Below, one piece after another: positions 12,238 to 14,428 of a DNA stretch of 46,831 nucleotides. The stretch is taken from contig DATJXN010000110.1 in the NCBI GenBank assembly GCA_035500095.1, forward strand, positions 1-46,831. The letters are read 5' to 3'. The stretch's first letter is position 1, and every line of letters begins with the position of its first letter. This DNA comes from Candidatus Binataceae bacterium (GTDB lineage Bacteria > Desulfobacterota > Binatia > Binatales > Binataceae). The notes below the pieces were generated by a model. It did not search any database, had not been told where the DNA came from, and was given only the letters and a program-made list of their open reading frames with translations. Made by a program: the position numbers and the translations under genes.

Positions 12238-13284
12238 ATGCACATCGAGACACTAAAAGTCTTTTGCGACATCATCGAGAGCGGAAGCGTTTCTTATGCC
12301 GCTTCACAAAACTTCGTCACCCAGTCGGCGGTCAGTCAGCAGGTCCGCAGTCTGGAGGAGAAGTATGAGTGTCGATTGTTAGAACGGGCGCGCGCGGGTG
12401 TCAAACCGACTCCGGCCGGGCAGATTCTTTACAACTCGAGCAAGGAAATCGTGCGCCGGTTCATGGAACTGGAGAACCGGCTGCGCGAGATCGGATCGGT
12501 CGTGGCGGGATCGATCCGGGTCGGCACCGTTTACAGCGTCGGATTGCATGAACTGCCGCCCTACCTGACCGAATTCCTGCGCACCTATCCCCAGGTGAAC
12601 GTGCATCTGGAGTACCTGCGCTCCAATAAGATCTATGAGGACCTGATCGAGGGTAAGATCGACCTCGGCGTGGTGGCCTATCCAGCCAAGCGCAGCCAGA
12701 TCGTCACGATCGCCTTTCGCTACGACGAACTGGTGCTGGTGGTGCCGCCCGATGACCCGCTGGCCAAGCTTAACAAGGTCAGCGTGAGCGCGCTTGCTGG
12801 CCTGAAATTCGTCGGTTACGAGCGGGACATCGCAACCCGCAAAGCGTCGGACCGCATCCTGCGCGAGCACGGAGTCAAGCCGCATTACACGATGGAGTTC
12901 GACAATATCGAGACCATCAAGCGTGCGGTTGAAATCGGACAGGGTGTCGCGATCGTGCCACTATCGACGGTCGAACACGAAACCGCTCGCGGCTCGCTCA
13001 AGATGCTCGAGTTTGCCGAAGGCACCTTCACGCGGCCGCTCGCGATCATCTACAAGCGCGGGCGGGAACTTTCGCCGGCAGTGCGGAAATTCGTCGAGGT
13101 CCTGACCTCGGCCAAAATTCAATCGCCCGGCACGCGCACCGAGAAGGGCGACGGCGGCAACGGCCGCAGCGAAGCTCGCGCCGAACGTCCGGATAAATCC
13201 GAGCGCCAGGACAGGTCAGACAGGGCCGACAAGGGCGAAAAACCCGACCGGGCCGAGAAGGCCGAACGGGCCGAACGCGCATAA
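12238..13284 (+). CDS. LysR-family transcriptional regulator with charged C-terminal tail
   Basis: A 348-residue LysR-type regulator. Residues 1-60 form the winged helix-turn-helix (LKVFCDIIESGSVSYAA, then SAVSQQVRSLEEKYECRLLER). Residues 90-290 form the periplasmic-binding-like co-inducer domain (GSIRVGTVYSVG, IDLGVVAYPA, VEIGQGVAIVPLS). Normal family members end near residue 295. Here about 50 extra residues follow (298-348), made almost only of Asp, Glu, Lys, Arg, Gly and Ala with DKxE/ERA repeats, likely disordered. The ATG at 12238 has no clear Shine-Dalgarno. Divergence from the glutaryl-CoA-dehydrogenase-like gene suggests it controls that gene. The ligand is unknown; a C5 dicarboxylate or its CoA precursor would fit. 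Confidence 0.9.
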   Translation: MHIETLKVFCDIIESGSVSYAASQNFVTQSAVSQQVRSLEEKYECRLLERARAGVKPTPAGQILYNSSKEIVRRFMELENRLREIGSVVAGSIRVGTVYSVGLHELPPYLTEFLRTYPQVNVHLEYLRSNKIYEDLIEGKIDLGVVAYPAKRSQIVTIAFRYDELVLVVPPDDPLAKLNKVSVSALAGLKFVGYERDIATRKASDRILREHGVKPHYTMEFDNIETIKRAVEIGQGVAIVPLSTVEHETARGSLKMLEFAEGTFTRPLAIIYKRGRELSPAVRKFVEVLTSAKIQSPGTRTEKGDGGNGRSEARAERPDKSERQDRSDRADKGEKPDRAEKAERAERA

Positions 13285-13320
13285 AACGCAAGCGCGCCAA
13301 GCGCGAAGCCCTTAAAACTC

Positions 13321-13671
13321 CTACGACAGCAGCGCCCGCAGACCCTCGCGATCGAATCCGGCTACGATCTCGCCGTCCGCCACCACCAGCGGGCGCTTGA
13401 TAAGGTTCGGCTCCCTGGCCATCAGCGCCAAGGCTTCTGCCGCCGTCAACTTCCTGTCCTTTAGCCCCATCGCCTTGAACGCCGGGCTCTTCGGATTGAG
13501 GAAATCGCGCGGATCGCGTCCCGCGAACAGAGCCTTCAGCTCGGAGGGGCCGAGCGGCTCTTTCGCGTAATCGCGCTCGTCGAGCTCCACCCGAAGTTCG
13601 TCACGCAAGAAACCTCTTGCGTTTCGGCAGGTGGTTCAGGTGGACTTCCAGAGCAGGCGCGCCCGCTTCAT
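13321..13671 (-). CDS. ArsC/Spx-family protein with in-frame UGA, probable selenoprotein
   Basis: The cysteine-only frame begins at 13608 and lacks the family's N-terminus. Read upstream in the same frame, the sequence continues through one TGA (13638-13636) to an ATG at 13671, giving 116 residues, the normal ArsC-family length. The N-terminus becomes LLWKST-U-TTCRNARGFL: the UGA is residue 12 at the first cysteine of the CxxC motif and Cys15 is the second. The rest fits the family, with KEPLGPSEL, LNPKSPAFKAMG and LIKRPLVV. A hairpin with a GGUU loop follows the UGA (separate entry). An AGGA lies about 9 bases before the ATG. By family it is a cytosolic thiol/selenol reductase related to arsenate reductase; the natural substrate is unknown. 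The alternative is a nonsense mutation of a TGC or TGT codon. No sel genes lie in this window. Confidence 0.8.
13603..13622 (-). promoter_or_regulatory. Probable bacterial SECIS element
   Basis: On the minus strand, inside the coding sequence, ACGCAAGA pairs perfectly with TCTTGCGT around the loop GGTT, an 8-bp stem. The loop begins 22 bases after the UGA codon. A short stem with G and U in the apical loop about 20 bases after the UGA is what SelB recognises in bacterial selenoprotein mRNAs; the E. coli fdhF element has a GGU loop at nearly the same distance. Binding by SelB is inferred, not shown. Confidence 0.75.
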
Positions 13672-13789
13672 TTAGGCTATTCCTCGCTCACTTCGCGTAA
13701 TTCGGTCTAATACGTGTACATTTTTGCAGGCTCCAGCCACTCGCTCCAGCCGCCGGAACGCTGCGACTCAATTTCGCCCGGGCCGGTAT

Positions 13790-14428
13790 CTATTCGATAC
13801 TGGTGCCCGGCAACGGCGGGGCAGCGACGCCGCCGCTGATCCCCTTGCCCGAACTGACCGGGCCCGCGCCGCGATCAGCCGGCTGAGCCGCAGCGGCCCC
13901 TGTCGTCGACGTCCCCGCGATAGGCGCGCTGCCGACCCCGGCGGTATTGGCCGCGGACACGGTTCGGTCGGCCGGCATCGGCTGGGCCGTCGAATTCGTT
14001 GCCGGCGGCGCGAACGAAGCCGTCGTCGCAGGCTGCGTCGAGGTGGTCGGCCCGCTGAAGTGAATCGGCTTCTGCCCCGCGACCATGTCGGGCGTAAGTA
14101 CGTAGTCGCCGCCAAGCGAGCTGCGCCAGATAGTGTTGGCGGTCTGCGTGTTGCCGCCGGTCAGCAGATAGCTCGCTCCGCCGGTGATTCCGCCCAGGAT
14201 TCCGAAGACCAGCTTGGCAGGCACGTAGAGAACGTTGCCAGCCACGGTGCCGGCGCCGATTCCGACGCCTTTCCAGTTGACGTCGCCGTTAGACGGCTGC
14301 GGCACCTGCGCCTGGCTTGCCTGCTGATTGCCGACTCCGATACTGCTGCCGTTCGAAGTTTGAGCTTTCGCGGGCAGCGCGATCGCTATCGCCGCGACCG
14401 TCACCAACAAACATGCAACCTTTCTCAT
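13790..14428 (-). CDS. Exported protein with conserved glycine-rich domain and low-complexity tail
   Basis: A 212-residue protein with a signal peptide (MRKVACLLVTVAAIAIALPAKA, cleavage before QT). Residues about 48-122 form a conserved-looking domain: VNWKGVGIGAGTVAGNVLYVP, a glycine-rich hydrophobic hairpin (LVFGILGGITGGASYLLTGGN), then IWRSSLGGDYVLTPDMVAG and PIHFSG. The last 90 residues are Ala/Pro/Thr/Ser-rich and probably disordered. I have a sense of similar exported proteins in related bacteria, often with the IWxxSLGGDYVLTPD stretch, but know no function. The glycine-rich hairpin could insert in a membrane. It precedes the ArsC-family gene on the same strand by about 118 bases and follows the CinA-like gene by 41. 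Confidence 0.7.
   Translation of the reverse strand: MRKVACLLVTVAAIAIALPAKAQTSNGSSIGVGNQQASQAQVPQPSNGDVNWKGVGIGAGTVAGNVLYVPAKLVFGILGGITGGASYLLTGGNTQTANTIWRSSLGGDYVLTPDMVAGQKPIHFSGPTTSTQPATTASFAPPATNSTAQPMPADRTVSAANTAGVGSAPIAGTSTTGAAAAQPADRGAGPVSSGKGISGGVAAPPLPGTSIE

Follow-up and report, generated by a model that had tools for sequence, protein, structure and literature searches.

A probable UxxC selenoprotein of the ArsC/Spx family in a Candidatus Binataceae bacterium and the probable replacement of its selenocysteine by cysteine in relatives

Our analysis of a 46,831-nucleotide stretch of DNA from a Candidatus Binataceae bacterium (the window, by which we mean the whole of that stretch) indicates, with a probability that we put at about 95%, that positions 13671-13321 of the minus strand encode a functional selenoprotein of the ArsC/Spx family (PF03960), in which a UGA codon is read as selenocysteine (Sec). 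The reading frame, the conservation of TGA or TGC at codon 12, the hairpin, the decoding genes and the predicted fold were all computed. Automatic annotation would shorten such a gene to a 95-residue fragment or label it a pseudogene; with the TGA taken as a stop, only a TTG-started fragment of that length is left (13608-13321).

The gene and its product

Translated through the TGA, the minus-strand frame (Table 1) gives the protein MKRARLLWKSTUTTCRNARGFLRDELRVEL...RALLS*. The initial annotation had proposed that extension through a single TGA would yield 116 residues and that the UGA would fall at the first Cys of a CxxC motif, and both proposals are borne out: the full-length translation matches PF03960 over residues 9-113 (E 2.9e-16, 60 bits against the Pfam cut-off of 24), and in alignments to Spx structures U12 and C15 coincide with the two cysteines of the Spx CxxC, the TGA taking the place of the first. 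A consensus scan of the region for terminators found two against 0.7 expected.

Table 1. Positions of the gene and its local elements in the window.
Feature	Position	Strand	Description
ArsC/Spx-family gene, probable selenoprotein	13321..13671	minus	116 codons; TGA = probable Sec12; motif U12-T-T-C15; stop TAG
UGA codon 12, probably read as selenocysteine	13636..13638	minus	first redox Cys of CxxC; sole in-frame TGA
SECIS-type apical hairpin, ACGCAAGA-GGTT-TCTTGCGT	13603..13622	minus	8-bp perfect stem, GGTT loop
Possible ribosome-binding site GAGGAAT	13680..13686 (approximate)	minus	upstream of ATG; read from sequence
Terminator-like stem-loop with T-rich tail	13293..13305	minus	just 3' of gene; consensus scan, weak

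The AlphaFold prediction (nine sequences, pLDDT 94.5) sets U12 just before a helix spanning residues 13-25, and the best fold match in the PDB is Spx (1z3e, E 4e-9, TM 0.85); other matches include YffB and E. coli ArsC. Fold and residues together place the protein with the Spx/YffB-type ArsC-fold proteins. Of the functions that such a protein could have, we regard that of a thiol-disulfide (or peroxide/sulfenate) reductase as rather likely, with Sec as the nucleophile and Cys15 as the resolving thiol.

Two other functions were considered for the selenoprotein, and we judge both to be improbable, to a similar degree. The first is that of a true glutaredoxin-dependent arsenate reductase, which PF03960 membership and the E. 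coli ArsC structures among the fold matches would favour. Against it, the TIGR00014 (arsC) model gives 40 bits and does not reach its cut-off of 106, and the comparison with an annotated arsC finds N59 in place of Arg60, F106 in place of Arg107 and C15 where arsC has Ser, only Arg94 being kept (as R93); these three arginines we take to be the arsenate-binding ones of true ArsC. Titles of PDB entries list R60 and C12 as mutated in E. coli ArsC structures. Additionally, we saw no arsenic genes in its immediate neighbourhood. Because two of the three arsenate-binding arginines are absent, thiol-disulfide reduction is the likelier activity, and by its residues the protein is probably not an arsenate reductase and resembles proteins of the Spx/YffB type. 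The second is that of an Spx-like redox switch that binds RNA polymerase. Spx is the closest solved fold, U12xxC15 matches the CxxC switch of Spx, and among the NCBIfam models TIGR01617 (Spx/MgsR) matches best. However, at 64.3 bits the match stays below the TIGR01617 cut-off of 75 (an Acidobacteria relative with TGA, P0002, lies just above it at 76.2), the protein ends at 116 residues and has no counterpart of the C-terminal extension found in the annotated Spx with which it was compared, and a selenol would seem to fit catalysis better than a slow switch.

Codon 12 among relatives

The bacterial family to which the source genome belongs also contains Candidatus Binatus. Of 41 genomes from this family, 40 have an orthologue, those outside the source genome being 57-86% identical to the protein of the window. 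Named relatives include Candidatus Binatus soli (70% identical) and MAGs labelled Deltaproteobacteria, one of them 87% identical, and these names suggest that the family belongs with Binatus. Many relatives share the gene neighbourhood, which supports orthology: a molybdopterin-binding/FAD-synthase-like protein, a hypothetical protein, the selenoprotein gene, a convergent LysR regulator and an acyl-CoA dehydrogenase. The hypothetical protein (13790-14428, minus strand) begins with a signal-like segment and matches no Pfam family, and a conserved stretch of it adjoins the selenoprotein gene in most of the relatives checked. The source genome also carries a second ArsC-family paralogue, free of TGA, as a 108-residue open frame that is 37% identical (G000:C122:16037-16321, L013); TGA-free paralogues are likewise present in many genomes of the family.

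When each locus in the family was read, codon 12 proved to be TGA in 28 of the 40 orthologues and TGC or TGT in the other 12. The initial annotation had argued that the position of the TGA was unlikely to be due to chance and had suggested a search for homologues with UGA or a Cys codon there; both forms exist, and these counts show that the position is not due to chance. The upstream frame, whose conservation it had also proposed to check, is conserved in the family homologues, pN/pS among TGA forms being 0.25 over the nine codons before the TGA and 0.27-0.36 after it, values that point to purifying selection on both halves as one protein. Beyond the family, one in-frame TGA is present in 13 of 15 matches from the class, counted by its presence in the frame and not by its codon position, and a locus from another family in the wider phylum sample (L077, about 1480-1827) has the TGA in the context WQKUTTCRKA. 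Three Acidobacteria loci (L065-L067, position 3001 onwards) have it at the same codon, in KPTUTSCRKARG.

These data bear directly on the reading of the gene as a pseudogene or as a sequencing error, in which mutation or misreading would have made a TGA out of a Cys codon. A single base separates TGA from TGC and TGT, and relatives with Cys forms exist, but the same TGA stands in 28 separately assembled genomes of the family, single in-frame TGAs recur in the class matches outside it, and selection acts on both sides of the codon; its recurrence in 27 genomes besides the source genome makes an error of sequencing very unlikely, and we give the whole reading hardly any weight.

About six changes between Sec and Cys are required on the tree of the proteins, and one Sec form (G009) is nested in a tight clade with three Cys forms (G003, G004 and G008), which fits a recent replacement of Sec by Cys. 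Since TGA forms are widely spread, the exchange would have run in the direction from Sec to Cys. A tree-based test of independent pairs had only two supported independent Sec/Cys contrasts to work with, too few for significance. The family offers a series of natural orthologues with Sec or Cys, in which the SECIS hairpin is correspondingly present or absent, for the study of why Sec is retained or lost.

The hairpin and the decoding of UGA

The predicted SECIS-type hairpin, to which the initial annotation does not refer, begins 13 nt after the UGA and its loop 21 nt after it, an arrangement that agrees with the criterion for bacterial selenoproteins of a SECIS-type stem-loop soon after the UGA with a G in the apical loop. 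Of the 31 TGA forms tested, 30 have a stem of 5 bp or more closed by a loop of 3-5 nt that contains GT, as against 3 of 18 Cys forms (Fisher p 8e-9, uncorrected for relatedness); in one TGA form, L033, the stem has a mismatch. In the window, a GT-tetraloop stem of this length arises in about 0.9% of synonymous shuffles, and the folding energy on its own is modestly low for the peptide (p about 0.1 against such shuffles), so that what supports the hairpin is the particular form it takes and the fact that it is conserved, rather than its free energy. Four TGA forms of one clade build the same hairpin from other base pairs (GCGCGGG/CCTGCGC in three, GCGCGCA/TGTGCGC in the fourth), and the Acidobacteria relatives have GCAAGA-GGTC-TCTTGC.

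Codon choice tells a similar story. The peptide is similar in TGA and Cys forms, with R[ND]ARxFLR in most. In 22 of 28 TGA forms its Ala-Arg is spelled GCA-AGA, codons that are rare here (5.9% of Ala and 3.3% of Arg codons, respectively), whereas each of the two is found at its position in only one of 12 Cys forms, in which the hairpin is mostly lost and common codons are used instead. Similar amino acids encoded by different codons are what would be expected if RNA structure, and not the protein, fixed the codons. A hairpin tied to the TGA in this way also contradicts a pseudogene or an error. Neither the source genome nor any of the control genomes gave a match to the Rfam family RF00031 (SECIS_1), and because controls were equally without match, this result speaks neither for nor against the hairpin; all Rfam families run against positions 13200-13900 gave only weak matches under the gathering scores, none of them matching the hairpin.

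The claim that the decoding machinery must lie elsewhere in the genome, to be checked by searching for selA, selB, selC and selD, was confirmed by a family-by-family search of the source genome (3.62 Mb, 95% complete). It contains tRNA-Sec (68.6 bits, above the Rfam cut-off, anticodon TCA), SelA (561 bits against a cut-off of 268), SelB (377 against 242) and SelD (385 against 125), with selD adjoining selB on the same contig (G000 contig C9). SelD itself has one in-frame TGA, in the motif KAAGUAGK, at the place expected for a Sec-containing SelD, and thus appears to be a selenoprotein in its own right. This TGA lies at L048 9346-9348 on the minus strand of that contig and is followed by a predicted stem-loop. 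With these four components the Sec system of the genome is complete, and the in-frame TGA of SelD brings its likely clients to no fewer than two; a complete Sec system is thereby documented in Binatus-type bacteria. The one formate dehydrogenase above its family cut-off in the genome has no in-frame TGA. Among the TGA genomes of the family, 27 of 28 have tRNA-Sec, SelB or both at strict thresholds, the exception (G038) being 53% complete. The two near-complete family genomes (96-97%) that lack both tRNA-Sec and SelB, G004 and G008, have TGC at codon 12; the remaining genomes with Cys forms retain at least part of the machinery.

A genome-wide reading of UGA as some other residue, or general read-through, could also account for frames that stay open across TGA in both the selenoprotein gene and SelD. 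Yet four of the nine main window genes checked end in TGA, which is therefore a normal stop here, the full set of SelA, SelB, SelD and tRNA-Sec is present, and across the 40 family orthologues TGA alternates only with Cys codons, with no Trp or Gly, so we consider an altered code every bit as implausible as a pseudogene. We reject a pseudogene, an error of sequencing and an altered code alike, on the conservation of the TGA, selection, the hairpin, normal TGA stops and the machinery.

We infer Sec incorporation itself, as well as the reaction, the substrate and the reductant, from this body of evidence. In the selenoprotein reading, SelB would bind the hairpin just downstream of the UGA and deliver Sec-tRNA(Sec) to the ribosome, and codon 12 would be decoded as Sec instead of stop. 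Sec12, placed at the N-terminal end of helix 1 in a thioredoxin-like fold, would most likely be the nucleophile and may attack an oxidised substrate such as a disulfide, a sulfenate, a peroxide or similar. Cys15 could then resolve the selenenyl intermediate as an Se-S bond, which glutathione or thioredoxin may reduce.

Relation to known proteins

ArsC-like selenoproteins had been said to occur in marine metagenomes, and a table entry of the Global Ocean Sampling survey does list Arsenate reductase 2 selenoproteins (cd03032) with UxxC (PMC2398784). Judged by that table entry and not by sequence, the ocean set is like the present proteins in being of ArsC/Spx type with UxxC; it consists of marine metagenome reads, whereas the present proteins come from Binatus-type and related bacteria. 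Reviews also list a UxxC family that is arsenate reductase-like, as COG1393 in one (PMC9312934) and as NF041106, ArsC family (seleno)protein, in another (PMC13188914). The window protein shares with NF041106 the character of an ArsC-family selenoprotein with UxxC, but at 18.3 bits it lies far under the cut-off of 85, and four relatives give 20-34 bits or no match. The lineage thus falls outside this NCBIfam selenoprotein model, and no current one reaches its cut-off on the window protein. None of the papers searched links Binatota to selenoproteins, or Candidatus Binatus to selenium; one Binatota paper, on sponge methanotrophs, has a single mention of selenocysteine.

Compared with Spx (1z3e) and YffB-type (1rw1) proteins, the fold is common, an Arg-Pro is matched at R93-P94 and the length is that of YffB; Spx has its CxxC at the positions of U12 and C15, whereas the window protein has Sec for Cys at position 12 and is without the Spx C-terminal extension. 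With ArsC of the E. coli type (TIGR00014) it shares the thioredoxin-like fold, a catalytic Cys12 that aligns with U12 and the equivalent of Arg94, but not Arg60 and Arg107, and ArsC is without its second redox Cys. We tentatively suggest, as a possibility somewhat short of an even chance, that these proteins form a selenoprotein family that has so far not been described as one. Its members would be redox enzymes of the Spx/YffB type with UxxC, ancestrally Sec-containing in the class, which occupy one syntenic place in the Candidatus Binatus family and would repeatedly have been converted to Cys with decay of the SECIS element, also where a genome has lost the Sec machinery. UxxC selenoproteins of the ArsC/Spx-like kind are already known, and the lineage is a good new example of them and not a new kind of system.
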